A stretch of 54,289 nucleotides of DNA, from NCBI GenBank assembly GCA_022925895.1, contig JAKSYS010000418.1, positions 1-54,289 of the forward strand, in the 5' to 3' direction. The stretch's first letter is position 1. The number at the start of each line of letters is the position of its first letter. The notes beneath the pieces are model-generated. The model did not search any database. It was not told the origin of the DNA and saw nothing but the letters and a program-made list of their open reading frames with translations. The position numbers and the translations under genes are program-made. Origin of the DNA: Fragilaria crotonensis (taxonomy: Eukaryota; Bacillariophyta; Fragilariophyceae; Fragilariales; Fragilariaceae). This document shows, piece by piece, positions 6,758-45,279 of this stretch.

Positions 6758-7685
6758 GTAGCGGCTCTGTGCGTGGGGGGAATAGTTAAAATTTGCACTC
6801 TCATGTCCGGTGTCACTAGCCATGGATCTATCCGCGTACGCTTGCCAACAGCAGTAGCCTTTCCACAAGCATTCGTGGTACGATACAATGTAATTAGATG
6901 AACTCCGAGACTCCGAGTACACTCGATCGCTCGAAAACCACAGTCGTGCATCCGTTTATACAGTTTCGTGATACGATCATATTGCAGTATGTGGATAATG
7001 TGAGCCAGCCCGAAGGATTGGCGAAAGGTTTGGACATATCGCATATGGCGTACCAATACGTACAGATAATACTGAGAATAGAATGCGTGAATACTGCTCA
7101 GTTCGTACTTGTTACCCATACACTTATATACCTGCTACTCCACTATTGATTTGTATATTGTGCTACTCCGAGTAACCGAGTTTACGGGTAGAAAACAAGG
7201 ATGCGTACGGTAAACCCTCTAGCAAGGTATTCCTAGTACAAATAGTACTTGTTCTTCAGTACAATACTTTCACCCTAATTTCTGGAATGTTATAAAAACC
7301 GGTAAATTGACGGTAACTTGTATCTCTGAAAGATGGCAGAGCGTGAAGAGTACCGGTCGTGCCTGATTGGAAAACTTTCAGCGACGAATACAAGTATATC
7401 GTGCCTGTCTCGGTTTTTCTCCATCCTTGCGGGTTTCAACAGATTCAAATCTGTAGGTAAGGCAGCGATGATCGTATCGCTGTGACACAGATGTTGGATC
7501 ACATATCAACGCATGAAACTCGGACCACAACTTCGAGATTGCTGCGTGTATCATATTCCAGCAGACAAATAGAAGAAGTATCAGCGGTGTATCTCATACT
7601 CCGAGTACAACGTACATAAACATACTTCTTCAAAAGTATATACACTTGTTGTCCTCTGTGAGAAGGTTGTACAAAAGCCGACGAC
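6758..7685. other. Intergenic region between NDC80 and the SGNH pair
   Basis: AT-rich sequence with scattered CGAGTAC/AGTAC words. Small ORFs on both strands (for example minus 6712-7119, which overlaps the NDC80 3' end) lack coding character. It presumably holds the NDC80 terminator and the promoter of the next gene. Confidence 0.55.
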
Positions 7686-9656
7686 ATGATGCCCAGCCGT
7701 GTTGAAAGTCCTATATTCAGGTGCTCTTCCACCTATGTGATCACTGTTGGCGCATTGCTATCGCTAGTTTTCCTTCTATTCCTGTCGAATTCCCCAATAA
7801 GAGGGGAACGATCAACGTCTTCCTCGTGGACAAATACCAATGATGGTGTCCGAGGGAGCGCGGATGTACAATCCAATGTCAAAATCGATGCTCAAGTACT
7901 GCAAGAGCGAATCACGAGTCGTCAATGTTCCTCTGTCTTGAACTTCATCCATTCGGGTATTGGTTTTGAACGTAGGAACGGCGCCACTGCTGATGACACA
8001 GAAACAACGGCTTCCACGACATTTTTACCTTCTATTCACAATATATGGGAAGAAACGGTTCATCCCAAACTCTTACGTCATGCCCTGCGATGGGCAAGCT
8101 TTAAATTGGGAAACAACAAGACGGAGGTGGATTTGGGGAAGATGACACACGATTATACCAAGGTCCACAATGAGTACATCGTTCCAAGACTCCGCAATTC
8201 ACTGATTCGACCCATGGAAGGCAAACAAGTACAACGGATTCTTCAAATTATAGAGAAGCGATTGATGGACCCCGTCAATAATCCACGCCTGGAAATCATG
8301 GTCTTTGGTGGTTCCGTGGTTCAAGGATGGCACAGTGAATTTCATAATTGGTTCCAACCAGGATTCGAGAATAAAGTCAATCCTGAGTGTGCTTCCTTTA
8401 GTTGGCCAGCACGACTGGAGGCAATTCTCAATGAAGTCATCTTTTTTGGTCAAGATGTTGTGCGGGTCACAAACATGGCAGTGGGTGGGACCACCAGCGA
8501 TGTTGGAGCTGTAGCATTGGAGTATGGACTCTTTCCTCCAGATTATCCGGGCCCGGATATAATTATTCATTCTTACGGCAACAATGACGGTAGACAACCG
8601 GGGGCAGACATTGACCGACTGAATCTTATGCAAGATTTCATCCGTGCAGCTAGAACGATGACCTGTGATGTTGAAAAACAACCGTCCATCATCCTCTATG
8701 ATGACTTTCTTGGGTTCTATTTTTATGACATTCATTACGCTATGGGATACTCTCAATATGTGTCAAAGGCAGCAGCTTGGTACGATTTGATGGCCGTGAG
8801 CTTCGCCAACGCATTTCGGCATACAGTCTACTCGGGTGATGGATTTGGGAACGCTACCGCTGTCGAACACGAGCCCGGTGGTGACCTCCCAATGCTAGGA
8901 TGGCGTCTCGAACTTCATCCAGGGATGCTGTATCATTCGACTTCACCATGGACGTTAGTCTACAACCTTTTGGATAACATGATCAACGCCTGTCAAGACT
9001 ACGCAACAATGACGCGGTACGCACCTGCGTTTGACGAGCTTCCATTGAACCAAATACCAGAATTGACGAGGGACTTTATGCTGTCTGATCTTCCCGAAAA
9101 GTGGAACGAAAACATTGCACACCACCAACAAATGTGTCTTAAAACATCGGATAAAACTGGAAGTGTCTGCGCGCCAACATCTTGGATTGCAGGCAGCTTT
9201 GCTGGCGCAAGGTCCCAACCGATCATTGATGAAGAAATGCAGCGATTGTTCTTATCAGGCAATAACGGGTGGCAAGTTGAGAGCATGAGTAACTCCAAAC
9301 CTCGGCCAGGATGGGTTGCTATTGCGGCGAAGGCGAAGTTCAGTCTCACGGTAAAGGATCATGAAGGCATTACATTTGCGACCATTATCTCCATGCAGAG
9401 TTATGGGGCAAAATGGGATGGTAGTCGTGTACGCGTCACTCTCTATGACCTTGGTCCTTCCGGAGCCGGTCCCGTTACAAATGTTGGGCTATATGATATA
9501 TCAGGATATCATAATATTACAACAAGTGTGCTGCATCCGCATAAGCTTCACCTGGAAGGCAATGGCGTTGCCAAAGGCAACTGGTTAATGGCCCACTTCG
9601 ACCTGGTAGGAGGGACTACGTTCAGGATACAGGGCATGCTCTTTTGCACACGCTAG
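7686..9656 (+). CDS. SGNH/GDSL-type hydrolase, membrane-anchored or secreted (paralogue 1)
   Basis: Intronless, 656 aa. A hydrophobic segment at about 18-36 (ITVGALLSLVFLLFL) is a signal anchor. The hydrolase core starts near residue 200: FGGSVVQG puts the nucleophile at Ser210 (block I), TNMAVGGTTSD gives the block II Gly, SYGNND (296-301) matches block III GxND with Asn300, and ELHPGMLYH (409-417) provides the His of block V. A C-terminal beta-rich domain of about 120 residues (KFSLTVKDHEGITF onward) ends in GGTTFRIQGMLFCTR. SGNH enzymes are esterases, lipases or carbohydrate O-acetyl/acyl hydrolases. The substrate here cannot be told, though the topology suggests a Golgi or cell-surface glycan or lipid ester. 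A paralogue lies directly downstream in the same orientation. Confidence 0.85.
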   Translation: MMPSRVESPIFRCSSTYVITVGALLSLVFLLFLSNSPIRGERSTSSSWTNTNDGVRGSADVQSNVKIDAQVLQERITSRQCSSVLNFIHSGIGFERRNGATADDTETTASTTFLPSIHNIWEETVHPKLLRHALRWASFKLGNNKTEVDLGKMTHDYTKVHNEYIVPRLRNSLIRPMEGKQVQRILQIIEKRLMDPVNNPRLEIMVFGGSVVQGWHSEFHNWFQPGFENKVNPECASFSWPARLEAILNEVIFFGQDVVRVTNMAVGGTTSDVGAVALEYGLFPPDYPGPDIIIHSYGNNDGRQPGADIDRLNLMQDFIRAARTMTCDVEKQPSIILYDDFLGFYFYDIHYAMGYSQYVSKAAAWYDLMAVSFANAFRHTVYSGDGFGNATAVEHEPGGDLPMLGWRLELHPGMLYHSTSPWTLVYNLLDNMINACQDYATMTRYAPAFDELPLNQIPELTRDFMLSDLPEKWNENIAHHQQMCLKTSDKTGSVCAPTSWIAGSFAGARSQPIIDEEMQRLFLSGNNGWQVESMSNSKPRPGWVAIAAKAKFSLTVKDHEGITFATIISMQSYGAKWDGSRVRVTLYDLGPSGAGPVTNVGLYDISGYHNITTSVLHPHKLHLEGNGVAKGNWLMAHFDLVGGTTFRIQGMLFCTR

Positions 9657-10482
9657 GTGGAGCAACTTTTCTTGATACTTCTGCTTGGAAGTGGGCTTTT
9701 GAACTACCGTACATAGTAGTGGGACTACTGGGTTTATTACCTCATTTTACTGAGAACTCTAGACTACTAGTGTGGACCACACTATTTTGGAATCCACACT
9801 ATTTGCGCAGCCACACGAACACCGTGACCATCGAGAATACTTGCCTTCTCTTCTCACAATCCAGACTCCAGACTATTGAAACTTGAAACTATGCTGCATA
9901 GTAATTGCTGTATACACTCGGTGTAGTAATTGTACTCCGAATACATAGAAGAACTCGAGAAGCACAAAGCACACCACAAACTACCGGTATCATACTGCAC
10001 TACCAGGTACCATACACCATACGTGCAACTCCGACCATCGGGGATGGAAAATTCGGTACCTGGTAAAAGAATAATATTTGAATAAGGCATGCATGTCTCG
10101 GAAATATATCTTAAACAACTTCCCTATTCTATATATAACGAGTGGTATTGCTGCAATTTGAATACCCAGACTGAATTCGGCAAGACTAAATGATACTCAT
10201 AGTACTGCATTATGCATACTAGTACATAAACAGGCGGGAAAAGTTTGCATTGGTTGATACATTTACTTGCATGGCTTTCGGCTCTGCAATTGTAGCTTCG
10301 TCACTGCAAACTGCTAACAGCAAACAGCCAACCACAAACGTACCCCAATTCTCGAGGTAGCCTTTTCGTCAATAGTAGTACTCGCCATGTAAGACACAAT
10401 ACTTGTACTGTACACCTACTGCGCTTGACGACTCCTAAGTTGTCGCAGCAGACGCAAGGCTTGCACCAAAGACACGGTCACG
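9657..10482. other. Spacer between the two SGNH genes
   Basis: Repetitive AT-rich DNA with GTAC words and a short perfect inverted repeat (TAGTGTGG-A-CCACACTA, around 9768-9784). No gene is seen. It must hold the promoter of the second SGNH gene. Confidence 0.5.
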
Positions 10483-12416
10483 ATGCTGAACGGTTGCAGC
10501 AATGCAATTTCAAGAATCGTTGGCTTGCGCTCTCCTCTCATATGCACAGTGCTCAATGTGTCTTTGCTGTCGGTGATCTTTGTGTTACTTCAGACGAACT
10601 TCCCTGAAAGAATAAATAGATCTCCTACCACAAAGAAGGATTCCGATCGAGTGGTCCTTGTCGGCGTAGATGAAGAAAGAGTTGTTTACACTACACATCA
10701 GTGTTCCTCTGTGCTGGACTACATCCAATATGGCGTCAGTATTAACTCCGAATCAGCCGATGTAACAACGACTGTCAAGACCTATTTACCTTCCATTCAC
10801 GATGTCTGGGAAGAGACGGTTCATCCGAAACTCCTACGTCACGCCATTCGGTGGGCGAAGTTTAAATTGGGAAACAACAAGACGGCGGTGAATTTGGAAA
10901 GATGAGACGCGATTTTACCCAGGTCCACCATGAGTTCATCATTCCGAGACTTCGCAAGTCGCTTGTACGACCAATGGACGACAAGCAAGTACAGAGGATT
11001 CTACGAATAATAGAGGACCGATTGATCGACCCGATCAATAATCCACGCCTAGAGATTATGACATTTGGTGGGTCCGTGGTTCAAGGTTGGCACAGCGAAT
11101 TTCATAACTGGTTCCAACCAGGATTCGAGAATGTAATTGAACCTGATTGTGCTTCGTACGCGTGGCCAGCGCGACTGGAGGCTATACTCAATGAGGTCAT
11201 CTTTCACGGTCAAGATGTCGTGCGTGTCACAAACATGGCAGTGGGAGGGACCACCAGCGATGTTGGAGCGGTAGCATTGGAGTATGGACTCTTACCGCCA
11301 GATCATCCTGGCCCAGATATCATTATCCATTCCTACGGTGTCAATGACGGCAGAAGAGCAGGGGACGACTATGAGAGGTTCAATCTTATGCAAGACTTCA
11401 TCCGTGCGGCCAGAGCGATGAACTGTGATGTTGAAAAGCAACCGTCCATCATCCTCTATGATGACTTCATGGGGTTTTATTCTCATGACATCTATAGAAC
11501 GATGGCATACTCTGAGTATGTGTCGAAGGCTGCAGCATGGTACGATTTGATGGCTGTGAGCTACGCCAACGTATATCGACATACGGTGTTCTCGGGCGAA
11601 GGATTTGGCAACGAAACTGCGGTCGAGCACGAGCCCGGTGGTGACCTCCCAATGTTGGGATGGAGCCTTGAAATCCACCCAGGGATGCTGTACCATTCCA
11701 CGTCTCCTTGGATGTTAGTCTACAACCTGTTGGATAACATGATCAACTCTTGTCAAGACTACGCAACAATGACTCGTTACGAACCTGTGTTTGAAGAGCT
11801 TCCATTGAACCAAATACCAGAATTGACGAAGGACTCCATGCTATCTGATCTTCCAAAGAAGTGGAACGAAAATATTGTAGAGCACACGAAATTGTGTGCC
11901 GAGGCATCCAATAGAAAAGGGAACGTCTGCGCGCCAACTTCTTGGGTTGACAGCGCATTCACTGGCTCGAGGGACAAGCCTAAAATTGACGAGGAGATGG
12001 AACGATTGTTTTTATCAGACAATGAAGGATGGCAACTGGAGGAAATGATAAACTCCAAACCTCGTCCAGGATGGGTTGCCTTTGCGCGAACTGCCACGTT
12101 CACCATCACCGTAAAGGACCACGAAGGCATCACATTTGTGACCATTATCGCCATGAAGAGTTATGGGGCAAAATGGAAGGACAGTCGCGTACGCGTCACT
12201 CTTTTCGACGATGGTCCTTCGGGGAAGGGTCCCATTTCAAATGTTGGGCTTTATGAGATACCCGGATCTCACGATACTACAACCAGCGTGTTGTTTCCAC
12301 ATAAGCTTCACCTGGACGGGGACGGTGTTCCCGAAGGCAACTGGTTGACGGCCCGCTTCGATCTGGTAGGTGGAACTACTTTCAGGATACAAGGCATGCT
12401 CTTCTGCACGCGCTAG
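10483..12416 (+). CDS. SGNH/GDSL-type hydrolase (paralogue 2), one frame break
   Basis: A close tandem paralogue of the gene at 7686-9656, with the same architecture: a signal anchor (about 17-40), FGGSVVQGWHSEF, SYGVND (block III), EIHPGMLYH (block V) and a C-terminal domain ending IQGMLFCTR. About 643 aa once the break is bridged. The frame shifts at 10896-10901: the first paralogue reads TTGGGGAAG while this one reads TTGGAAAG, so one G is missing. The C-terminal 500 codons are otherwise fully open and conserved, which argues for a sequencing error or a very recent lesion. The signal anchor and linker have diverged much more than the catalytic core, as expected for functioning duplicates. 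Substrate unknown. Confidence 0.82.
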
Positions 12417-17301: not shown

Positions 17302-19921
17302 TCACAATAATACTACACCAGCGTCGGATAGCTTGCTCCGTAGCCATTCTTGGCTCACTTGGTGTTGTCGTGCTTCTGCCCAGTTCAAATTAATGACATT
17401 CCAACCAAGCTGTTGCAACAAACGACGTTTCGCCTTGGTGGGTCCATTCTCAAGTCGGTTCCCCTCGTTGTCACCAGCAACCGATAGGTAATGGCTGGGA
17501 CCATCACATTCAATGGCTATCCGGCGTTCCACGCATGCCAAGTCGATGGAAAGCATTCCAGGGATGGATTCAAAAGGAGAAATTTCGCATTGGTGGGAAA
17601 ATCCAATGTCCCAAAGTGTGGTTGATACTGTCGTCTCAAATCTGGATGATTCAGTAGTAAATGGAACTCGATCAAGCTGCGTTTGAAGAACTGATGATGG
17701 ACTTGCAAGCGCCATGTCAAACGCTGATGCACAGGCCTGTACGTAAACAACTTGTTTCAATTCTTCAATCGGCAAGTCATCAATGTCCCTTGCTATGAGG
17801 TCCTTCCACAGGTTTGCTAGCATGTCTTTCTGACTCACACCACTAAGGTGGAGGACCACTATAGCGTAGCAAACATTGCACAAATCTTGTGAATTTGCAT
17901 CAGCCAGGAACTCATTCAGGCATCGTTCCAAGGCGGAGAAAAATCCACGCGAATGACTTCCCAATACAGCAAGAGCATATGCGCAATTCGCAATTTCCTG
18001 TGATGATCCATGTTCAACTAACCATTCCGCATGCTCGTCCAGCAATCGAAACAAATTCGGAGACTCGATTTCAAGCTTGGCGCACGCCCATGCGCAGTTT
18101 GCTAACCCTTGTGGAGACCCACCGTTGGCAACAAACATTTCCGCGCGTTCGTCCAGTAGCCGAAACAGATTCGAACACTTCATTCCAAGCGTGCCACATG
18201 CCCAGGTACAGTTTGCTATCACTTGTTGATTTCCATTTTCAAATAACCACTCGGCGTGCGCATCGAGCAATCGAAACAGATTCGGAGACTTTAGTCCAAG
18301 CGCACCACAGGCCCATGCACAGTTTGCAATTTCTTGTGGCTTGGCATCTTCAAAAAGCCACTCCGCGCGCTTGTCGAGCAACATGAACAGATTCGGTGAC
18401 TCAACTCCAAGCGTACCACAAGCCCATATACAGCTTGCGATTTCTTGTTGATTACCATACTTAAACAGCCATTCGGCACGTTCTTCCATCAATCGAAAGA
18501 GATTCGGAGACTCCATTCCAAGCTTGGCACATGCCCAAACGCAATTCGCAATTTCTTGTGGCTTTCCATTTTGAAACATCCATGCTGCGCGTTCGTCGAG
18601 CAATCTGAACAGCTTTTGGGCCGTAATTCCAAGACTACCACATGCCCATATGCAGTTTGCAATTTCCTGCTGGTTTCCATTGAAGAACAACCATTCCGCG
18701 CGTTCGTCCAGCAACCTGGACAGATTAGGAGACTCACTTCCAACTCTAGCGCACGCCCATATACAATTTGCGATGTCCTGTTGATTCCCATTGTGAAACA
18801 GCCATTCCGCACGTTCGTCAATCAACCTGAACAGATTCGGAGACTTTACTATCTAGCTTACCACATGCCCACATACAGTTTGCGATAACCTGTGGATTCC
18901 CAAATTCAAACATCCATTCGGCATGGTCATCCAGCAATCGAAACAGATTCGGAGCCTCAATTCCAAGCGTGGCACACGCCCATGCACAGTTGGCCAAGCC
19001 TTGTGGAGTCATCCCACTTTGAACCAACCATTCGGAGCGCTCGTCCAGCAAGCGAAACATGTCATGACACTCGAATTTGAGCCTACCACATGCCCAGAAA
19101 CAATTCGCAATCTCTTGTGGATTCCCATGTTCAAACATCCATTCCGCAGTCGTTGGCTCGTCCAGCAGTTTCATGATATGGAGCGCAATGGAATCAGCCT
19201 TTAGGGGGAGTCCCATCTTTGCAATGGCATGGACTGTATTGCCCAATTCCCGAGTACCTCCCAGCCATGTGATTCCATGCACATGCAGCTTTGTGTTCAG
19301 GTCTGATAAAAATGCTTCGAACAATGGATCATCGTTTCGCAAATGTCGGATGCGCGCTATTTGCGACATGACAGTGGCATGATTGACAGGATCAAAATAC
19401 TGCTTTTGGTTCTGATACAAACTCAATATTTCTTTCCATTTTCCAGCTTTTCCCAGTGTAATGATTTTCTTATTGATTGATATTGACATTGATTTTGCAT
19501 TTCGGTCCACTTTTTGTGCCCCACGATCAGTTGGTCTTGTCGGATTCAATTCTTGGTCTTGTAATGTTGAGGAATACGATACGTGGCGAGACTCTGGAAA
19601 TCTCTTAGCATGCATGCGATCCCGTCGTTCTCTTTCACATAATAATGACTTGTCCAAAGATGCGATTAGAGAGAGATTTACCATTCCACGTCCATGAAAA
19701 GCGCGCCGTAGAAACGTTGGACTGAGACTGGAAGGGAACGAAATCCCCCTCATTGACCGTGTTTTCGAGGCGAATCTCCCAATCATTGTATTAGGGTCCT
19801 CGTCTAAATGTTGATTATTGTTGATACTAATATCATTGAACCCCCTGGGTAGTCTTCGAATGATTGTATCTCGCACTGTCGACTTTATTCCACCAAAGTT
19901 GATTGTGATGGAATATGACAT
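17302..19921 (-). CDS. Octotricopeptide-type repeat protein with C-terminal RAP domain
   Basis: About 872 aa once a one-base break is bridged. The N-terminal 150 residues are basic and Ser/Arg-rich, compatible with organelle targeting. Then come about twelve repeats of 37 residues. Ten carry the core IANCxWAC, with the consensus SPNLFRLLDERAEWLF, NGNQQEIANC and WACGxLG; the last two are degenerate (ANCAYAL, CNVCYAI). The C-terminus is a RAP domain (IAIECDGPSHYL, KAKRRLLQQLGWNVINLNW), an endonuclease-like fold common in organelle RNA factors. OPR/RAP proteins bind and stabilise or process specific chloroplast or mitochondrial transcripts; that role is inferred. The break lies at 18845-18847: removing one A from the minus-strand AAA turns SKVSESVQ into the expected SKSPNLFRLIDERA repeat. 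No introns are seen. Confidence 0.88.
17960..19150 (-). repeat. Tandem 111-bp coding repeats (OPR units)
   Basis: About ten to eleven 37-codon units, strongly alike at DNA level (for example the recurring minus-strand word behind SPNLFRLL). Such arrays change copy number by unequal exchange and are hard to assemble, so the unit count may not be exact. Confidence 0.8.
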
Positions 19922-22064
19922 ACGACTGTGACAAGTGGGTTGGGGGAGCAGAACAGCGACATCTACGACAACTTATCATCATATCATCATTCTGTGGGTG
20001 CGGTTTCTTTTGTATCAAGTATCGTACGTACATGGACAGTACCAATACACAGTAGGAAGACATGTACTGTATGACTCAAAAGTCATAAAGTCCAAAAATC
20101 ATTTTTACTTCTCCGTACAGTAGCACCTGGATACTGGCTACACAGATTGTCTGAAGTACCGAGGGTACCATGGTACTGTACAATGTGGTATTTCTTCCAT
20201 GTGTCTACTTTGTACCGTAGTCTCCGTAGGTTGACAGCAACCTACTGGGGTACTGTCGTACTATGCTAAGGAGAATTCGCCGTACAAACTTGCATGTACC
20301 ATTCCACGTGCTGGTATGTTTGTAGTGTAGAATCTACTGGTGCTTATTTAAGGTTCCACTTAACAAGACTTCAAAATGGCGCATGGTCGCATGGACCAAC
20401 AAGGCGCCCACCTCAAAGAGGCGATTCCATTGTTGTTACTTTCTATGATTTGATGCAACATTTTGCTTGGAAGAACTTCTCTCTCAAATATGTACCTTTG
20501 CGAATGCCTTGAATCAGATCAGTTCCGTGGTTTTTGTGATGATGTATCCAACAGAACTCGTCGACTCGAGAGCGTCTTGTAGGCTCGACGTAAGCACACA
20601 AAACCTTGGTTTATGTAGCAAGTGGTACATTTTGAACTGAATATCAGACGAGAACTGCTCCTAGCTAGTAGAGAGCATATATGCGACGAGGGGACTGTGA
20701 CCCGAAGAATTCTGCGTATTCCAGAGTGTCGAATGCTCGAGAGCTACTTAAGCTCTTTGTCTCAGAATAGCATCTGGTACTACCAATTGCGAACCCTCAT
20801 TTCGTTATCGAATGTATCACTCACCTATCCACTTGAGCTTGCGACGAGAACTGCGCCATATTCCTGAAATACATACAGGAACACGTAATCGACGAACTGT
20901 GACAAAACTCGACATATCCCTTCCATATTTAACATGTAAAGAACGCGAAGGGGCTATCCCGATCAAGCTGAAGTGGATGCCATTGAGACCTTTGTTGTGA
21001 ATTTAAGATTTATATCCTATGCAAGCATTTTGAAAGGAGCACCTGGTCAAGGAAAAGACCGTACTTACAAGGTCGTGACGACGATCTTGGATGAACGATT
21101 TCCAAGATCCCAGGCGTTGCGACTTTATTATGAATACCGACTTCAAGTACATTTTTCCAACGCGACATTTCGTAGACATTTCCGTGGCGACAAACAGATC
21201 TGAAGAGTCGTATGACTGCATATGGGTGGATGGCTACTGTAGAAGCCTCTATATGATATATTGGGTTTAAAGTTGAAACGCGTCTACGCAATTTTGACGT
21301 CACTGATTGATGGGCCATCGGCCATCGACCATGGGGACACGTTGAAAGTTGCGCCCATTGAATTGATGTGAGGATTAGGCCCTCCCGCAAGGATCCATCG
21401 ATCAACATAGTTAGAGGACCTGTGTTAATCATCGAGAGTAGACTACAGAAGGAGTACAAGCACCAATTGATATGCAGAGGTTAATGACAAAGATCGAAAG
21501 CTAAGTCTCGCCCGTCACCAGCGTTGACACATGACCGAGTTGCTTCATTCAGTGCTGAGCGCAAGTTAATCAATTGCATATTCTAATTCGTTATAACAAA
21601 ACAGTCCATCGTACCGTCTCTGCTTGCAATCTCGTTGGCGGCGTGATTGCACTAATTGCTTGTTTTGGTTTGACCAGCGGCTCTAACAAATGACAAACTA
21701 CTCTCACCACTGTACCAGTATTAACCGACCAACATACTTGATCATGCCAGAACAAATTTCCATTAGATTCTGTTTTAACGTAGACCCTTGCCTGCGAAAG
21801 AGATATTGATAAACTATTCCGAGCGAGATGGCTCTTGAGGTCGCCGACGTGTTTGAAAGTCGACGACGAGCAACTGACTGGGACTTCATCGTTCTCGCGT
21901 CGTACAAACAATTATTTCCTCGAACTCACTGACTCGTTATTGAATCATAGTGGTCAATACAATTTGACAAGGAGGAGCAGGTAAGCTATAACGTTCCCCT
22001 GAAGCCGTTCTTAGGCAATTTACATCAAATCAACAAGCCCTCGATTGTTCCGTGGCTAGATTCG
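19922..22064. other. 2.1-kb region without a recognised gene
   Basis: GTAC-rich at the left (20000-20300). A 76-codon ORF at 20973-21203 (+), starting MDAIETFVVNLRF, and a 149-codon ORF at 21010-21459 (-) overlap; neither shows a known motif. Another minus ORF at 21591-21911 is equally orphan. The region between divergent gene starts probably includes the promoter of the RAP gene and the 3' flank of the helicase gene. Confidence 0.45.
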
Positions 22065-25000
22065 TCATTCATGGGAGTTCGGGGTGACAGATGCATTGAG
22101 TAAAACCGCAGGGGTAGGAGACATTGACTGAACGCAAGGCGCCTCAGTTTCGTCGATTAGTATTTGCCTTGTCACCGTCTGTACCTCCTCACTATCATGA
22201 GTGGACGAGTCTGGAGAGTGGCACCCCATTGGAGTCTGCGGCGTCACGACGCTACGCACCTTCGCTTGACTTTTGTCATCGTCGGAAACGCCCAATTCTT
22301 CCTCTTGCGTGACATCGAAGGCAATAGGAGCAGTTGATGTCCAGCTACCCGTCTTGACATCGAACCGGTGAGACCGACTGGTTTGGGCTTGGGAATTACG
22401 TAAGAGCATAGCTTCTTGTTCCCTGACTTTCTGAGCATGGACAGGAGCTTCAGTGAAGAAGCGCTTCATTTCCTTTTGCAATCCAGCCCACCCACCATAA
22501 ATAGAATGCGTGCGGGTGTCACCGTTATCTCGCATGGAAAGGTTCCTGACGTGATGGCGCATCCATTTGGGAAGTCGGAGGTGCGCTTGGCAGAGGTGAC
22601 CCTCACGAGGACCTCCATCGTCGCAATGTCTCGAGTCCATTAAGACAATAGTGCCGTAGTCAGATGCATGGCGAATGCATCTACCCAAGGCTTGAGCAAT
22701 GGCGCGGTAGGCCTGTTGAGCGTACCAATCGTTTCCTGGCAACAAATCCAATCGCTTATTCAACTTTCGCTGTTCGTCGTTGTATGCCTTCTTGGCTGTA
22801 ATGGGACGACTGTAAGCACTGGGAAATGGAATACCGACGCAAATGACACCTCTTGCGTTCTCGTCGTTGAAACTGATGCCTTCACTCATCTTCCCGCGAA
22901 ATACAGCCAGCAGGACGCAGCTACCCGTGGCCGAAATCGTACGCGCGTACTCCTCCCGCGCCAACTCAAAATCAGCTTGAGAACCAGTCGGCTCAACAAC
23001 GACCTTACCCTTGCTAGCAACAAGGCGTTCCCAGACTGTTGATCGTGCCCCACTTCTCTGTCGTGCCTGCCACCCATCTGCACCTTGCCGAGCTTGCCAT
23101 GTTGTAACACACTTTCGGAGATTTGAGTAGCTTGAGAAAAACACTAATACCCCACCAGAAGGAATGGACTGGACAACAGTCGCGATCGCATCACCCAAAT
23201 TGCGGACGAAACTGTCCTGGTTCCAAGTACAATAGTTGGCCGTCAGCGGCGAACCTTGGAGTGTAAATCAAAGCGTTAAAAAAAGAACAAAAGCAGTACC
23301 ACGGCCAAAAGGAAACACTCACCATCCATTAGAACACCACAGCTGACAACTAGTAACTGCTTTTCCAAGTCAATAACGTGGTCCGCCTCCAGAGGTTTCG
23401 GCGTCATCTGCAACCGAGGCACTGGCGTAATCACTCCGCAAGGTGGAGACAGAAGCTGTTCCTCCCAGTCAAAAACTCTGTCGGCCTCCGAAACGTCCAA
23501 GGGTTGCTGGGAGTTCTGCGAGTGTGGGAATTCTTTTGTTTCTTTTCCTTGCTCGGATTCGTTCGCAGGTGTTCCCAGCAATCCCGATGATAATAGCGAT
23601 TCTTCTTTGGTTGCTGTTGAGCCGAGTAGGCCTAATTCGGCGCATAGCGATGGTATTGGTGCCAATGAGCCCGAGGCCAACACAACAGTACGACATTGGT
23701 GTCGAAGGTCGGCAAACAACGGTGCTGGTGTTAAAAGCTCGAATCGTAACAACGCTTCCCACCGGGGCTGCGCACCGTCGCAGTATTGCCCATGGCGGAT
23801 GTATGTAAGCTTACCTGTCCGGCTACAGAATGTAGCACGGCATTCAGGACGAGTACATACGCACGTGCTCGTAATCTTGGGTAAACACCGGAATTTGTCA
23901 GTGGGTTGGACAGGCGAGGTGTCATCCTCCGTCTCGTCCCTTGAAGCAAACTCAAGTGATCCATTAGCCTTGATCGCCGACGCAATGTAGTAGTGCTCAG
24001 AGTGTTTGGCCGTGAGAGATAGAATTGTCGTAAGAGCACTCAATTTGTCGAGAATTCCACTGAACTTATCCGTTTGCCAATCTTCCTCACCACGCAGACT
24101 TTTGACGAATTCTGCACTGCTGGATTGCAACTGATCGCCGTCAAAGTCTGTGTCAAGTTTTTCCAAGAACGTGGCACATCCGACAGCTTTTCCCCGCACC
24201 CCATGGCCGGTGGGGCCGTCAAATGTCATGTCGAAATCCTTGTCATCGTTTACTTGGCCGTTGCGCCATTGTTGGAGCACTTGGGTTGCCTTTGATCGTT
24301 CGAACTTGACTTTGTTGTCAAACAGGCAGCGAAGCAGTGATTCGACGACGAGCAATATTGTATGCGCACAATCGGAGAGTTGAGCAGCTTCGGGAGAACT
24401 ACGGAAGGTTGGTTTGACCGACGCGTATTCATACAACATTTTGACCATTTCGGCCAACTCGAACTCACTAAACGTTCCGGAACCCGATTCACGAAGGATA
24501 TCTTCCACATTGTGAGCTTCATCGAGGACCACAATCGAGTTCCTCAGGTTTATTCCCGACATTTCTCTAATGTTTGGATCCAAGACGTAGTTGTATGGGC
24601 AAAACACGAGTTCGGCATCTTTCGCAAGTCCCTTGGAAAGATAGTAGGGGCACGGAGCATGTTCAGAGAGATCTTCTTCAGTGTCATCCACGACGTGGTC
24701 AGGATTCGAGGTAGTATCCAGCATCAATGGCTTGTCATCTGGAGTCTGCCCTACTTGACGGGCTGCCTGTTGGACGGAAGGAGCAGCTGCTTTCCCATTG
24801 ATGGTTAGGATTACATCGCCAACTTTCACTGCCGCCGATGAAGCTGCTGGACTTGGATTTCGAATGGCTCCAATCCGAATTCTATTTTCGTCTTCAATGA
24901 GCGTCATACCGAATGGTTCCTGCGGAGATCGATAGATGGCAACACCTCGCTGACGATACGGATCTTTTCCAAAGAGTACCAAATCTTCAACATCGTGCGT

Positions 25001-26029
25001 CCCATGCTTGGAATCGGCACCACCGTTTTTGGCCGCGCGAGTTGGCACAAAGCTGTTGCATGCCATGACAGCGGTCCGTCGTGTGCCAATTTGTTGATAA
25101 TGAGGACAGCATGACTTTTTGGGCAATCGTCGAAGCATACCATCATTGTGTTCATCATCATCAGGATCATGCGCGTCTGCTGATGTCGGAGTGGCAGGTG
25201 GTGCTTGTTCTGTCGAATCCTCCCATGAAGGTTTTGGTGGATTGTTGTCGTCATAGTACTCATGACGGGATGTGAGCATGTATTTCCGCATATCTTCCGT
25301 GGTTTTCACACGCACACGACATTCCTTATCCATATTTTTACTGTCCAGTACTCGTTGGTTGATGCACAAGAGTTTTCGGCTCCCCAACATGGCCATTCGA
25401 GGACGGTATGGTGTTTTGCGAAGAGACGAGACCATCTGAGCCACCTGTGAATGAGTTCGAGAGCAGTAAAAGATCCGGCATGGTCTTTCGATTGACGCGC
25501 CTTCCATTTTGGTATGATAACGATGCCAGGCTAGGACGGAACAAAGAATGGCAGCACTCTTCCCCGTACCTGTAGGAGATTCGATGACCACATGCTTGGA
25601 TGCTTTCAGTGCAGTAATTAGATGCATAGCCATTTGGCGTTGGGGTTTCATGACAACTGGAAACGGCCAACCAATTTTTACACCACTGACGAAAAATGAA
25701 GGGTGGAGACTTAGTTTTGGTAGGTCGCCTTCCATGGGTTCTGTAGTTTTTGTAGCAGACTCGAAACGCTCTGTAGGCCGTGAACCATTTCCACTAACCG
25801 GGACAGAATATCCCTTTAAAATTAATTGTTCTCGTAAATTTTCGGCAAGCAAATCCGTGATTCGCTTTTCTTGTGGTTTCTTGACGGCCTTCTCGTCGCC
25901 ATTGTCAAAGTGCGATGAATGAGAGGAAGGGCGTTCAAGTTCTTCATGAATCAATTCTTCAATCCTCGTTCTTTTGGCATTTCGCTGATCAACGTCGGAC
26001 TCCTTGACCTTGGTCATTAATTCACTCAT
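22065..26029 (-). CDS. FANCJ/BRIP1-like Fe-S DEAH helicase with an inserted PDZ domain
   Basis: Predicted minus-strand exons are 26029-23323 and 23254-22065 (68-nt intron, phase 1), about 1298 aa (human FANCJ 1249). Motif I is ESPTGTGKSAA (about 150), Ia is YCSRTHSQVAQM and II is VLDEAHNVED (DEAH about 503). Later come LMDGSPLTANY, GKMSEGISF (V) and QALGRCIRHASDYG (VI). Candidate Fe-S cysteines lie at about 222, 237, 324 and 460. The pair APCPYY and FCPYNY (FANCJ-like) follows a foreign block at about 368-440: EPFGMTLIED, GAIRNPSPAA, VKVGDVILTINGKAA. That block has the pattern of a PDZ domain. XPD-family helicases of this group unwind DNA 5'-3', including G-quadruplexes and crosslink intermediates. 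Residues near 850-895 contain a partial internal repeat. The tail is Ser/Thr/Gln-rich without a clear BRCA1-binding motif. RTEL1 is the main alternative; the HVI and NLGDAI blocks favour FANCJ. Confidence 0.88.
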
Positions 26030-29724: not shown

Positions 29725-30401
29725 GAATTCTGTTGCTGCTTCAGTTTCAGTGGTAAAATGCTCGTTTTCTTGAATTTAGTTGCCTTGCATTCCCAGAATA
29801 TCCGATATAAATGTTTAGACTTGAAAGCTAGTTCAGCGACAAAGGGTTTCTTTTAGAATGCATTCGCCGCGTGCATTTAGTGAACTCTGTTGAAAACAGC
29901 GTTCGTGAAGCGAGACACAAAACGAGAGAATCGAACTCATTGCAACTTGGCGCAAAATCACCATTGTCGTAGTAAGCTGCCTCATCTGGCGCGTGTTCTG
30001 CAATACAAACGATCCGAGCATATGCGGCTCATGCGGTGCGAGAGGATGTCCGGGAACCTTCGTGACCTCGATGCGATAAAAGAATCTGCCGAAATACATG
30101 TGAGTATTCAGATTCTCTTCGAATGGACTCACATGATTCGCCATCACAACTCACTAAACACTCGCTGGCGGCAATGCACACGAATTAATCGATTAAAATA
30201 GCTCTGGAATTTCCGATTTTTTAATTAACATATATACAAGTATTGATACAGCATAAATCAGCAGTTTAAAAAATCATCGCCTAGCCTCACATTTTCTTTT
30301 TCTTCATCACTCGCTCCTTGTGATTGGTGGCGAACATTTGCATTACTGAAGAACAAGTTGCAATCGAGAAAACTTCACAAAAGCCAACCATTGCTTTTGA
30401 G
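29725..30401. other. Intergenic region upstream of PSGKPS gene 1
   Basis: No gene recognised. Small ORFs on both strands at 29833-30201 show no motif. The right end carries the putative promoter elements listed separately. Confidence 0.5.
30231..30295 (+). promoter_or_regulatory. Putative core promoter of PSGKPS gene 1 (TATA-like box plus CCTCACATTT element)
   Basis: TATATAC at 30231-30237 and CCTCACATTT at 30285-30294 lie 54 bp apart. The paralogue at 33596 has the same two words 52 bp apart, at a similar distance from its ATG. The second word may mark the transcription start. Confidence 0.4.
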
Positions 30402-32150
30402 ATGGTGAAAGCGAGAAATCTCGTGTTGCTGGCGCTGGTCGTGATTGGGGGAGTTGACGTTCACGCTGGCAAAGACTGCACTGGAGAAGAATGGGGAGCG
30501 AACTGCTCCTATCCCGATCACAGAGAATTTTGCGACTTCGATTCATCGATTCTTCAGGAAGGCTTCCCCCGAAGTGTTTGCGCTCCTGTTGGCATGCTTG
30601 AATACTTGGTCGGAGAAAAAGACTATTGTGGACGGTGTAAGCCTCCTGAAGACATCGTTTTTGGGATTGCGTACCCATCTCAGGAGCCTACTTCATTGGA
30701 ATCATCGCAGGCATTGGAATTTTCCGTGCCGTCTGCCGAGCCAAGTAGTTTGCCATCCGCTGTCCCTTCTAGCAAGCCATCAGGATCGTCCTTACCATCC
30801 TTGGAACCGAGTGAAGTACCTTCCAGCTTCCCATCTGGAAAGCCGTCGGGATCTTCCTTGCCCTCAGCCGTCCCAAGCAGTATTCCTTCCACTGCATCTT
30901 TGAGCAATCTCTCCGGGTCATTCTTACCATCCTTGGAACCGAGTGGTGTCCCTTCGAGCGTCCCATCTGGAAAGCCATCGGGTTCTTCCTTGCCCTCTGT
31001 CGCGCCTAGTAATTATCCGTCCGCTGTCCCTTCGGGCGAACTGAGCGCTCTTCCTTCGAGCCTTCCGTCAGGAAAGCCATCGGGCTCTTCCTTGCCCTCT
31101 AGTGAGCCCAGCACTTACCCGTCGGGTGTCCCATCCAGCACGCCGAGTGCTCTGCCTTCAAGTCTTCCGTCAGGAAAGCCATCGGGATCTTCCTTGCCAT
31201 CTGTCGCTCCTAGCAATTATCCGTCCGTTGTCCCTTCGGGCGAACCGAGCGCTCTTCCTTCGAGCCTTCCGTCAGGAAAGCCATCGGGTTCTTCCTTGCC
31301 ATCTGCCGCGCCTAGCAATTATCCGTCAGCTGTCCCTTCGGGCGAACCGAGCGCTCTTCCTTCGAGCCTTCCGTCAGGAAAGCCATCGGGCTCTTCCTTG
31401 CCCTCTAGTGAGCCCAGCACTTACCCGTCGGGTGTCCCATCCAGCACGCCGAGTGCTCTGCCTTCAAGTCTTCCGTCAGGAAAGCCATCGGGATCTTCCT
31501 TGCCATCTGCCACGCCTAGCAATTATCCGTCCTCTGTCCCTTCGAGCGAACCGAGCGCTCTGCCTTCGAGCCTTCCGTCAGGAAAGCCATCGGGTTCTTC
31601 CTTGCCCTCCGCTGAGCCAAGTGGCATTCCTAGCGTCGAGGGCTCGCCAGTAGGCGAGACATATTCCCCTGCAATGAATATCGATATTGCTGGTTGGCTT
31701 CGTAACTTGCCTTCGGCCAGTCCGTCAAGTCAAGAGACCGATGCGAACACAGACAACGAATTGCTCGAAACTGCATCTTACACATTCCCTTATGCGTTTG
31801 TCGACGGCGAATTGACTGGAGAGCAGGTGAAAGAGTTCGAATCAGCCATACAAGTGTTTCTCAATTTGGAGTGGTCGCGCTATGATAGCCGAGGTACACT
31901 CATCGTCGAGGTTCATGCAGTTCCAAAAGACCTCAACGAAACAACTCGGCTGCGTCGTCGCGCTCAAAGTGTCAGTACTGTTAATCCACTTGATCTCAAG
32001 ATCAGCGCCGTCGTTCCGCGTCGGGGTGATCAGCCGTACGATCTTCTCGGTATTATTGCCACAATTTTTGACGAGAGAAAGCAGTCGCTGAGACATAGCT
32101 TGGAGGTAATCGGCATTCCTATTGTTCTCACAGTGAGCGGCAACAACTAG
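30402..32150 (+). CDS. Secreted Pro/Ser-rich repeat protein with six-Cys module (paralogue 1)
   Basis: About 582 aa from the first ATG (30402); upstream codons in the open frame contain no ATG. The signal peptide is VKARNLVLLALVVIGGVDVHA. A short module with six cysteines follows (DCTGEEWGANC, EFCDFD, SVCAP, DYCGRC). About 330 residues of tandem Pro/Ser repeats come next (LPSSLPSGKPSGSSLPS, SNYPSAVPSGEPSA). The C-terminal globular domain of about 140 residues begins TASYTFPYAFVDGELTGEQ and contains GTLIVEVHAVPKDLNETTR. Such repeats are typical of secreted or cell-surface diatom proteins, probably O-glycosylated; a role in the wall or extracellular matrix is inferred. The C-terminal domain has no membrane helix after it. 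A degenerate copy of this domain lies at 35196-35610. Confidence 0.85.
   Translation: MVKARNLVLLALVVIGGVDVHAGKDCTGEEWGANCSYPDHREFCDFDSSILQEGFPRSVCAPVGMLEYLVGEKDYCGRCKPPEDIVFGIAYPSQEPTSLESSQALEFSVPSAEPSSLPSAVPSSKPSGSSLPSLEPSEVPSSFPSGKPSGSSLPSAVPSSIPSTASLSNLSGSFLPSLEPSGVPSSVPSGKPSGSSLPSVAPSNYPSAVPSGELSALPSSLPSGKPSGSSLPSSEPSTYPSGVPSSTPSALPSSLPSGKPSGSSLPSVAPSNYPSVVPSGEPSALPSSLPSGKPSGSSLPSAAPSNYPSAVPSGEPSALPSSLPSGKPSGSSLPSSEPSTYPSGVPSSTPSALPSSLPSGKPSGSSLPSATPSNYPSSVPSSEPSALPSSLPSGKPSGSSLPSAEPSGIPSVEGSPVGETYSPAMNIDIAGWLRNLPSASPSSQETDANTDNELLETASYTFPYAFVDGELTGEQVKEFESAIQVFLNLEWSRYDSRGTLIVEVHAVPKDLNETTRLRRRAQSVSTVNPLDLKISAVVPRRGDQPYDLLGIIATIFDERKQSLRHSLEVIGIPIVLTVSGNN
30740..31640 (+). repeat. Tandem coding repeat array (PSGKPSGSS units)
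   Basis: Units of roughly 100 bp, some pairs nearly identical over 200 bp (for example the blocks beginning about 31090 and 31390). This points to recent internal duplication. Confidence 0.85.
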
Positions 32151-33595
32151 TGGAGCGCCAACATGAGAAAACTGTATGTCACATTTGAAAGTTTCCATGG
32201 AGCACATGACGTTGGTGTTTATAGAGTAAAGTTTAGTTTTTGATTTTATTGGTACGACTCCATTGTGCTTTAGAAAGGTTCACTGCAGCCACCATCGGCT
32301 AGCAGAATGATTGCTACTATTATTAGGAGAGCAATTGTTGGGATTAAGTGTATAATACGATACTGGAGTATGACTTGAAGTACTTTATTTATCACTTACC
32401 TATAGGTCATCATCCTCGAAATGTGGCATGTTCTGTACTGTACATACTACAGACGACTTGCTCCGAGTTTATTCCTGCATGCCTCGCCTCTAATAATCTT
32501 TCTCGTTACGTCAACAACGCTAAACAAACTCCACGTTCACGATGCTAATGAATCATACACTAAATAGAAAACATATGAGGTATAAGGTATACATCTTTCT
32601 CGAAGGATTATTATCGGTGTCTTGTCCAAAGACAATCATTGTGAAAGTTGCATGATTAACTTGATGAATAAAGATGTATTGACATAGACTGATTTTGTGC
32701 GGCTTTCGGTTCTCTGTGTCGTTGATTTATTCTTTAAAGATGCGTTTTCCCTTCTTCCATAAAACGCATTGGTTCCGTAGAACTCACTTGTTCCTTTGAT
32801 CACATACTTCGGAAAACACATCACTGTGCCGTGTTGCTAAGGATAAAGGCATAGGCAGCTTTGACGGGTTGATGAGACCGCATACTTCCGGCAATTCATG
32901 AAACAACAGTGCCCTTGTTTTAGGAGTTGGTTCATTATCATTAGAGAGTTAGAGAGAGTATGAATGAGTCCATTTCCTTGTTTGTTTTTCAAGGGCATCC
33001 TTGATCCCTTCTACTTGACCAAAATATCTCCAATATTAAACAGCACAATCAGAAGTGATGGTTATGTAGCACGAATCCAACGCACCAGTACATGGGATTT
33101 CAATATGCTTCGTGTGTGTACAGTTCATTTTGTTTGTTCATTTGTTCATTTGTGTGCTATGGATGGTATGGTATGGACTCGGCTACTAGTGTGTGAAGTG
33201 TGAGTAGGGTGATGACGTCATGATCCATCAGCGCCCATCTGGGGGCAGGGTCCTTGTATGCCTGTGCGCGGACAGCAGAGTCGGGTCGGGTCGTGCCTCG
33301 TGCCTGGTTAGCGCCGTGGACAGGCGCTCGTAGAGACTTGTAATATCCAAAATTTCTCGTTCAGAGCAGGACACACTCTAAGTATCTAAACATACATAGC
33401 TTATCAATGATGTGCAAACGATGGGTTGAGAAGTAGTATATATACATTCATGAGCATTTTGTTAAGAAGGTAGTTTTTTCGTTCATTCATCCTCACATTT
33501 CTGTTTGGTTTACTATCGCCGGTAGATGCCAACAACTCCACACTTCGCGGATCGACATCCGGGACAATATATCTGACCAAGCAATTTACGTTGCC
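32151..33595. other. 1.4-kb intergenic region between the PSGKPS genes
   Basis: No gene is seen. It contains a TGACGTCA palindrome at 33213-33220 and, near the right end, the putative promoter elements of the second PSGKPS gene. Confidence 0.5.
33439..33500 (+). promoter_or_regulatory. Putative core promoter of PSGKPS gene 2
   Basis: TATATATAC at 33437-33445 and CCTCACATTT at 33491-33500, the same pair and spacing as in front of the first PSGKPS gene. The ATG follows at 33596. Confidence 0.4.
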
Positions 33596-35115
33596 ATGTT
33601 CAAAATGCGGAGCGCATGCATCCTTCTGATAGTTGTGGCCAATCGAGTGAATGGTCAGGTTGTCCCCGATTGTTCAGGGCAAGAGTGGGGAGCAAATTGC
33701 GAAAATCCCAATTACAGACAATTTTGCGATGCCGACGCAACGATTCTTGGTGAAGATTCAAACAGAAGTATATGCGCTCCAACTCTAGCGCTACCATTTC
33801 TGGTCAGTGATGGAGACTATTGTGGACCATGCTTGCCTCCATCCGCATTGCCAAGTGTGATGCCATCGATCATTCCTTCTCCGCACCCTTCAATGTCGCC
33901 TTCAACCAAACCAAGCGTCAGAGAATCAAGCTATCCATCAAGAAGGCCATCGGGATCTTCGGCGCCTTCAGAGGCAACAAGTAGCACATCAAGCGACATG
34001 CTTTCCATATACCCATCTGGAAAGCCATCAGGATCTTCCTTGCCTTCTGGGAAGCCTTCAGGATCTTCCTTGCCTTCTGGGAAGCCTTCAGGATCTTCCT
34101 TTCCTACTAGAATGCCGAGCGTTCGGCCATCCAATATTCTATCTGAAATACCTTCCAGATCTTCGTTTCCCTCAAGAATGCCGAGCGTTCGGCCATCCAG
34201 TATTCTATCTGAAATACCTTCCAGATCTTCCTTTCCCTCAAGAATGCCGAGCTTTAGCCCATCTACTAATCCCTCTGAAAGGCCTTCTGGCTCAACCCTG
34301 CCTTCTGAGGAGCCAACCTTCGCTCCCTCAAGGAGTCCTTCCGCAATGCCTTCGCGCTCCATCTTTCCCTCTCGTGAGCCGTCAAGTGTTCCGTCAAACG
34401 TTCCCTCAGGGAGACCGTCATACTCGTCCATTCCCTCTCGCGAGCCAAGCGGTGTTCCTTCCAACGTTCCCTCAGGAAAACCATCAGGCTCCTCCTTGCC
34501 CTCTTACGAGCCGAGCGGTGTTCCGTCCAGTGTTCCCTCAGGACGACCTTCAAGCTCGTTCTCACCCTCTCACGAACCAAGCGACGTTCCATCCAGTGTT
34601 CCCTCAAGAAAACCTTCAGGCTCTACCATCCCCTCTCACGAGCCGAGCGGCGTTCCGTCCAGTGTTCCCTCGGGAAAACCATCAGGCTCGACCATCCCCT
34701 CTCACGAGCCGAGCGGCGTTCCGTCCAGTGTTCCCTCAGGAAAACCATCAGGCTCCTCTTTGCCCTCTCACGAGCCGAGCGGTGTTCCATCCAGTGTTCC
34801 CTCAGGAAGACCTTCAGGCTCGTTCTCACCCTCTCACGAGCCGAGCGGTGTTCCATCCAGTGTTCCCTCAGGAAAACCTTCTGGTTCTACCATCCCTTCT
34901 AACGAGCCGAGCGGTGTTCCGTCCAGTATTCCCTCCTTAAAACCATCTGCCTCGTCTTCGCCTTCGTTTCAACCCAGTCATATCTGTCGATTCTACCGAC
35001 ATCAGTGACTTCGTCTTCATCTGAAATTCCAACATTTGTCACGCCCATCGTCTTCATCTTCGTTTTCGCTTGCGCCTTAATACTCGTGATGGTGTTGAAA
35101 CGTACCAAGTCTTGA
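33596..35115 (+). CDS. Secreted/membrane Pro/Ser-rich repeat protein with six-Cys module (paralogue 2)
   Basis: The signal peptide (SACILLIVVANRVNG) is followed by the same six-Cys module as paralogue 1 (DCSGQEWGANC, QFCDAD, SICAP, DYCGPC). About 370 residues of repeats come next (EPSGVPSSVPSGKPSGS). The continuous frame stops at 35008, but adding one T to TTT at 34967-34969 reads on through SILPTSVTSSSSEIPT into a membrane helix (TPIVFIFVFACALILVMVL) and a short basic tail (KRTKS) ending at 35115. This makes a type I membrane mucin-like protein, and I prefer it to the truncated version. It lacks the globular C-terminal domain of paralogue 1. The function is unknown; a surface or wall role is inferred from composition. 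Confidence 0.78.
33930..34960 (+). repeat. Tandem coding repeat array (EPSGVPSSVPSGKPSGS units)
   Basis: Units of about 60 bp in the middle and right of the array are nearly identical; at 34020-34100 a shorter unit (SGKPSGSSLP) is repeated. Confidence 0.85.
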
Positions 35116-44029: not shown

Positions 44030-45279
44030 CTAGTAATGTTCCAGATTCACATCGACCCTTTTGTTTTGGAGCAACTCACAGGGGACTTGCACATGGCCAT
44101 TATGACTCGCAACGTAAAGGGCTGTTGAACCATCAGTTCTTTGGAGATTCACGTCCACCTATTTTATTTCGAAGCGACTCGCGGACGACTTCCACATGCC
44201 CCTGTTGACTCGCAACGTAAAGGGCTGTTGAACCATCAGTGCGTTGTAGATTTACAACCACCTTAATGTTTTGGAGCAACGCCCGGACGACTTCCACATG
44301 CCCCTGTTGACTCGCAACGTAAAGAGCTGGGCTGTCGCACCATTCTTACATTGGAAATTCACATCCAGTTTGTTGTTTCGGAGCAACTCGCGGACAACTT
44401 CCAGATGGTCATTTTCGCTCGCAATGTAAAGGGCTGTTTCACCAGTGTGACGTTGGAGATTAACATCCACCCTGATGTTTTGAAGCAACGCGCGGACAAC
44501 TTCCACATGGCCATTTTGACTCGCCTTGTAAAGCGCTGTTGTACCACCATCAACAGTACGTTGTAGATTCACATCCACCTTGTTGTTTTGGAGCAGCTTG
44601 CGGACAACTTCCACATGCCCATTTTGACTTGCATGGTAAAGAGCTGTTTCACCATCCTTACATTGGAGATTCACATCCACCTTGTTGTTTTGGAGCAGCT
44701 TGCGGACAACTTCCAAATGGCCATTACAACTCGCCATGTAAAGGGCTGTTGCACCATCTTTACATTGGATATTCACATCCACCTCATTGTTTTGGAGCAA
44801 CTCACGGACAACTTCCAAATGGCCCTTACAACTAGCCATGTAAAGGGCTGTAGTACCATCAGTCTTTTGGAAATTCACATCCACCTTGTTGTTTTGGAGC
44901 AACTTGCGGACGACATCCAAATGGCCATTAAAACTTGCCATGTACAGGGCTGTTGCACCTTCTTTACATTGGATATTCACATCCACCTTGTTGTTTTGGA
45001 GCAACTCACGGACAACTTCCAAATGGCCCTTACAACTAGCCATGTAAAGGGGTGTTGCACCATTAGTGCTGGGAGATTCACATCCACCTTGTTGTTCTGG
45101 AGCAACGCCCGGATGACTTCCAAATGTCCATAACAACTCGCCACGTAAAGGGCAGTTACACCAACATCATCATGTTGAGAATTCACATTGGCTCCCGCTC
45201 GTAACAGGTCACGAACCTCCTGGAGATTTCCTTGATAGGCATAGTGAATCAAATTATGATCATTCGCACTCAACGGCAT
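44030..45279 (-). CDS. Ankyrin-repeat protein, about twelve repeats, three frame breaks
   Basis: From MPLSANDHNLIHYAYQGNLQ the protein is almost entirely ankyrin repeats of the form DGATALYMASCNGHLEVV and RKLLQNNKVDVNLQC. About twelve units of 33-35 residues end at a TAG at 44030-44032. Frame breaks lie at 45071-45073 (GGG, plus strand; one more G joins VDVNL to STNGATPLYMAS), at about 44330 (two extra bases in ACAGCCCAGCTC) and at about 44160 (AAATAAAATAGG). Units are so alike that they must have spread by recent duplication. Ankyrin proteins mediate protein binding; no catalytic domain is present. It may be a living gene with sequencing errors or a young pseudogene. Confidence 0.7.

Follow-up and report, generated by a model that had tools for sequence, protein, structure and literature searches.

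A predicted PDZ domain between iron-sulphur cluster cysteines of a FANCJ-like helicase in the diatom Fragilaria crotonensis

FANCJ-family proteins are DNA helicases that unwind in the 5'-3' direction and protect genomes at crosslinks and G-quadruplexes, and the usual work of PDZ domains is binding C-terminal peptides. In a 54,289-nucleotide stretch of the Fragilaria crotonensis genome (contig JAKSYS010000418.1; the whole stretch is called the window here), a first-pass annotation proposed that a FANCJ-like helicase carries a PDZ domain within its Fe-S region. We asked whether the gene is of the FANCJ type, whether the inserted segment is a PDZ domain that stays in the protein, and what such a domain may do beside the cluster. 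The host genome gave 19 silicon-transporter matches, 18 of them above the cut-off, with a top score of 646 bits, which mark it as that of a diatom.

The minus strand carries the gene, whose layout is as follows.

26029-22065, minus strand: FANCJ-like helicase gene, two inferred exons, 1298 amino acids predicted
23323..26029, minus strand: exon 1, 902 codons plus one base, the open frame P0001 from 26029 down, its end inferred from sequence; N-terminal tail, helicase domain 1, Fe-S domain with the predicted PDZ insert, Arch region and motif III
23255..23322, minus strand: intron of 68 bp, GTGAGT...CCAAG, inferred from sequence
22065..23254, minus strand: exon 2, helicase domain 2 (Helicase_C_2) and a C-terminal tail ending NSHE
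25556..25582, minus strand: Walker A, ESPTGTGKS, by motif search
24509..24532, minus strand: Walker B/DEAH motif, VVLDEAHN, by motif search

Inspection of the sequence placed the exon 1 donor at 23323 (ATGGATG/GTGAGT) and the start of exon 2 at 23254, after ...CCAAG. Removal of the 68-bp intron joined LMD-G-SPLTAN in frame and left no internal stop in the 1298 residues. The SF2 motifs Walker A, DEAH box and Helicase_C_2 were all present in the predicted protein, and Pfam scored DEAD_2 at 125.7 bits in exon 1 and Helicase_C_2 at 142.5 bits in exon 2. In the PDB search, human FANCJ was the top solved relative of both exon 1 (3.6e-40) and exon 2 (8.8e-32), against 2.5e-14 for XPD and 4.3e-14 for Chl1 with exon 1, which bore out the proposed FANCJ type; no RTEL1-named entry was among the 15 PDB matches listed for exon 1. 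The genome search found one FANCJ copy. Separate XPD and DDX11 homologues, assigned by sequence, and a separate RTEL1 homologue, assigned via its ARCH_RTEL1 domain, were found elsewhere in the same genome. With human FANCJ as the best PDB match and these homologues encoded elsewhere, we rejected an XPD, RTEL1 or DDX11 identity; judged by search scores, the diatom protein is nearer to FANCJ than to any of the three. Helicase motifs and cluster cysteines also follow one another in human FANCJ/BRIP1 (PDB 9ej9) as they do in the diatom protein.

Other genes of the window were noted in passing. Two neighbouring genes at 7662-9656 (+) and 10429-12416 (+) encode predicted proteins that are very similar by eye, likely a tandem duplicate, and the first gave no Pfam match. 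A RAP domain (43.6 bits) and many NxQEIANCxWACxxLG-type repeats, each about 37 residues long, mark the frames at 17302-19972 (-), which encode what we take to be an organellar RNA-binding repeat protein. Neighbouring genes at 30324-32150 and 33437-35008 (+) have long PSGKPSGSSLPS-type repeats and, by eye, a similar N-terminal part; their products are possibly secreted or wall proteins. An ankyrin-repeat frame with very similar repeats (44252-45166, -; Ank 189 bits) and a transposase-like frame (51652-52185, +; DDE_Tnp_4 63.3 bits) were also seen.

The Fe-S region of the helicase contains the following features, in the order of the protein.

25364..25366, minus strand: C222, cluster cysteine 1, Cys in 78/78 aligned sequences
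25319..25321, minus strand: C237, probable cluster cysteine 2, opposite the human FANCJ NEKC cysteine in the alignment
25106..25108, minus strand: C308, cluster cysteine 3, Cys in 70/78 aligned sequences
24991-24962, minus strand: VEDLVLFGKD, by motif search
24653..24964, minus strand: 104 residues (356-459) that follow the VEDLVLFGK helix and precede cluster cysteine 4
24710..24937, minus strand: predicted PDZ domain, about residues 365-440, on profile, PDB, hhalign and alignment evidence
24919-24890, minus strand: EPFGMTLIED, by motif search
Residues 371-375, minus strand: carboxylate loop EPFGM, within the predicted PDZ domain
24871-24842, minus strand: GAIRNPSPAA, by motif search
24829-24794, minus strand: VKVGDVILTING, by motif search
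24658-24641, minus strand: APCPYY, by motif search
24653..24655, minus strand: P459, directly before cluster cysteine 4, aligned with human A349
24650..24652, minus strand: C460, cluster cysteine 4, Cys in 78/78 aligned sequences

The motifs lay where the first-pass annotation had placed them, all on the minus strand, which it had not given, and the predicted PDZ shares exon 1 with the motifs of helicase domain 1, as it had said. Four putative cluster cysteines are thus present in the diatom FANCJ. The second was assigned solely from the alignment with human FANCJ; the C237 column has Cys in just 7/78 rows and a nearby column in 54/77. Cluster cysteines 2 and 3 are also far apart, the loop that joins them (25109-25318, minus strand) being about 70 residues long and partly acidic; its human FANCJ counterpart is presumably about 12 residues.

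The inserted stretch lies between cluster cysteines 3 and 4, just where it had been proposed, after the VEDLVLFGKD segment. It measures 104 residues in the diatom protein, whereas only 4 residues separate the LGK helix from cysteine 4 in human FANCJ (WDIEELVSLGK-KLKA-CPYY). The expected short linker was also found in 3/3 diatom paralogues, with 4 residues before cysteine 4 in each (GN-TRKV-CPFY, GK-ARGW-CPYY and GE-ASHA-CSYY). When the insert was omitted, the alignment to human FANCJ crossed the site with one single-residue gap and continued through IEELVSLGKKLKACPYY. Among prokaryotic relatives (80 kept, 79 readable), cysteine 3 was approximated crudely by the first cysteine met on going upstream from a point 26 residues before cysteine 4; its distance from cysteine 4 was 26-53 residues in 79/79 (median 39). 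In the diatom FANCJ, C308 is 152 residues from cysteine 4, and an extra, unconserved C324 is at 136. Walker A and DEAH are 349 residues apart, against 127-245 in the 79 prokaryotic relatives. Two viral helicase relatives (L018 and L019, from the alignment scan of viral contigs) were excluded from these spacing counts. The layout with the insert was seen in none of the three paralogues or the 79 readable prokaryotic relatives, and single-protein scans of viral contigs and prokaryotic genome contigs returned no relative bearing it. A transposon footprint was considered unlikely, as just short, chance-sized repeats were found around the insert.

We then come to whether the insert is a PDZ domain. 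On a 123-aa segment PF00595 scored 25.2 bits (2.2e-5), above its cut-off of 23.2, and it reached 25.8 bits in the whole-genome scan, again above cut-off and last among the 20 PDZ matches listed; in the 917-aa full-length scan it scored 21.0 bits (4.5e-4), under cut-off. Of the two profiles proposed as a check, PF00595 and PF17820, the first therefore stood on the segment and the second did not, as PF17820 (17.7 bits), like PF13180 (23.2 bits), remained under the cut-off of 27. The PF00595 match spans profile positions 3-56 of 81; helix B and the last strand, which added little score, fit both on visual inspection and in the MAFFT alignment. A phmmer search of the PDB, run at E up to 10, had the MAGI-2 PDZ as its top match (E=4.2e-4), the sole row below 0.001 among the best 60 of 101. 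By their names we take 59 of these best 60 to contain PDZ domains, the exception being GAPDH (4lsm). A leave-one-out profile, built from 8 further PDZs in the genome, the query being excluded, gave 23.3 bits, a score reached by 0/20,000 shuffles (18,413 scored, the best at 13.2), and the reversed sequence gave 4.4 bits. Searched in the whole ORF, this profile gave 18.3 bits (E=7.5e-5), with the runner-up among 766 ORFs of the window at E=1.4. Hhalign returned 91% over 48 columns. These lines of evidence support the proposed PDZ in the Fe-S region.

The carboxylate-binding loop (X-hydrophobic-G-hydrophobic) is present as P-F-G-M, and its glycine is invariant in 9 aligned PDZs. The other PDZs of the same diatom, which belong by eye to S41-type proteases and to KPMGIVFE- and GKLGIILAN-type proteins, have these PDZ landmarks in common with the FANCJ PDZ; the 8 compared were 12-26% identical to it, and 0/8 of their frames were helicase-like. 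The GDVILxING motif by itself is weak PDZ evidence and not diagnostic, because 14 stretches with that DNA pattern in viral contigs held 0 PDZs by eye. A PDZ profile run over those 14 stretches and the other scanned loci gave nothing under E=0.16, and scans of viral contigs with a two-PDZ alignment and with a protease alignment gave no PDZ rows. GC at codon positions 1/2/3 was 0.61, 0.49 and 0.40 for PDZ residues 365-441 and 0.57, 0.44 and 0.47 for residues 1-880, so that in codon-position GC the insert is much like the remainder of exon 1. By sequence, then, residues 365-440 form a predicted PDZ domain, with a modest Pfam score that falls under cut-off in the full-length scan.

AlphaFold was run on the segment and in context. 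The 116-residue segment alone had a mean pLDDT of 39. The run in context covered residues 105-810 with an alignment of 77 prokaryotic XPD/DinG-type relatives (77/80 loci). It returned helicase domain 1 folded and mostly confident, the greater part of this domain exceeding 90, and the insert at about 30, with 174 of the 706 residues at pLDDT of at least 90 and 238 below 50. By blocks of ten, the insert had 25-37 over 365-434 and 47 for 435-444, from an alignment that held no PDZ homologues and that placed the relatives' pre-cysteine stretch on residues 433-459, not on the VEDLVLFGK helix.

An insert of this kind could also arise as an artefact, the PDZ segment being a retained intron, an alternative exon or an assembly join. 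A first splice scan found no donor scoring 6/9 upstream of the PDZ and no YAG acceptor in 24739-24600. The gene's own inferred intron ends AAG, so all AG acceptors are admissible and not YAG alone; 9 donors (25060-24938) and 4 acceptors (24709-24600) then combine into 36 GT-AG pairs, 16 of them in frame, which would remove the PDZ. Half of these 16 spare C460, and 4 of those 8 also spare the VEDLVLFGK helix (24945-24676, for example). However, none of the 9 donors scores above 5 of 9, against 8 for the donor of the gene's own intron, and the two acceptors that spare C460 follow purine-rich tracts (4-5/12 pyrimidines, against 9/13 in the own intron). The frame is open throughout the segment, and no intron would match a PDZ profile by chance. 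We therefore hold an intron unlikely on such weak splice pairs, and an assembly join likewise, since the genome search found the segment a single time; taken as a whole, an artefact is most improbable.

What the domain may do was approached by comparison with human FANCJ, which has an insert of about 150 residues after Walker A that the diatom protein is without: the alignment skips human residues 93 to 244 where the diatom runs on at 184-195. According to the accessible part of one account this insert mediates MLH1 binding (PMC8109800), and the consulted sections of another describe MLH1 as critical for bringing FANCJ to crosslinks (PMC4204437). A CIP box of human FANCJ, in a region that includes N734, D736, L738 and L739, binds AND-1, as stated in the excerpted text of a third (PMC10897178). 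Counted by hand in the exon 2 alignment, these four residues align with diatom D, E, A and R, and the CIP-box di-leucine is gone in the diatom because L738 and L739 align with A and R. By alignment, the MLH1-binding insert is absent and the AND-1 CIP box is not conserved in the diatom FANCJ. Both elements have been described for human and vertebrate FANCJ, and we do not take them as family-defining.

Our main reading, to which we give a probability of roughly one in two, is that the PDZ serves as a docking module. It would grip the C-terminal peptide of a partner at the replication or repair fork, and the partner-bound PDZ would place the helicase on its substrate, standing in for the human MLH1-binding insert and AND-1 CIP box. 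Docking is the simplest reading because PDZs usually bind C-terminal peptides and the core is without the human docking sites. We infer that the domain folds, binds a peptide, has a partner and acts in recruitment. By eye, helix B probably begins at or near V419, which would favour a hydrophobic residue at ligand position -2. Binding of the PDZ to the protein's own C-terminus was held unlikely, as NSHE is not a usual PDZ ligand. Docking is also suggested by Chl1/DDX11, an XPD-family helicase that likewise has an insert with a partner-binding motif in helicase domain 1; that insert differs in lying between Walker A and the Fe-S domain and in being mostly disordered and without a PDZ, as far as the available portion of the source goes (PMC8109800).

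The null reading is that domain shuffling put the PDZ into a surface loop that tolerates it, where it does nothing that depends on a ligand. The cluster domain of the family does tolerate additions, as bacterial DinG, set against YoaA, carries an extra helix and insertions within its Fe-S domain; these were proposed to affect substrate choice and, in the partial text at hand, are not described as PDZ (PMC9826845). The FANCJ PDZ has no close relative in the genome, the next best match being 32% identical (E=0.014), and for that reason it would be old or freely diverged. An idle domain should decay, however, and this one has kept its landmarks, including the carboxylate-loop glycine and the GDVILTING core. 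We consider an idle insertion possible but doubtful.

Docking competes mainly with an effect on unwinding, because the PDZ adjoins the cluster, the insert lying next to C460. The PDZ would then gate or tune unwinding and not serve recruitment, with its ligand altering the coupling of translocation to unwinding. The residue directly before cysteine 4 is A349 in human FANCJ and a proline, P459, in the diatom protein, whose motifs otherwise look intact; a proline was found there in 0/77 aligned prokaryotic relatives and 0/3 paralogues. In people the Fanconi mutation A349P leaves translocation uncoupled from unwinding, according to the sections seen of its description (PMC4204437). Strand separation has been placed around the FeS and Arch domains, with the exact elements not fixed in the part of the study that we cite (PMC7125077). 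The long insert may itself offset the effect of P459, however, and we rate this tuning of unwinding as unlikely. A stronger form, in which the protein would be a peptide-gated repair helicase that unwinds fully only once the PDZ next to the cluster is occupied by a partner C-terminus, is a long shot; if it held, partner binding would switch a translocase into a helicase, given the disease-type proline.

The layout is so far that of one species, Fragilaria crotonensis. No PDZ-in-FANCJ layout was found in the literature searched by title and start of abstract, a scope outside which domain-architecture catalogues and most subscription papers fall. The first-pass annotation, which knew of no described FANCJ-family protein so arranged, agrees with that literature as well as with the paralogues and prokaryotic relatives counted above, and the combination of a PDZ with the FANCJ Fe-S domain appears in no relative or paper within reach, although a catalogue entry may exist.

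The cluster domain of FANCJ is sensitive, and a change of one residue beside cysteine 4 leads to Fanconi anaemia in people. A peptide-binding domain together with a disease-type proline at this place would show how far the cluster region can be remodelled. The PDZ would be a natural handle for controlling a FANCJ helicase through a peptide, and it may offer a route to the partners of the diatom FANCJ because the docking sites of the human core are missing or not conserved.
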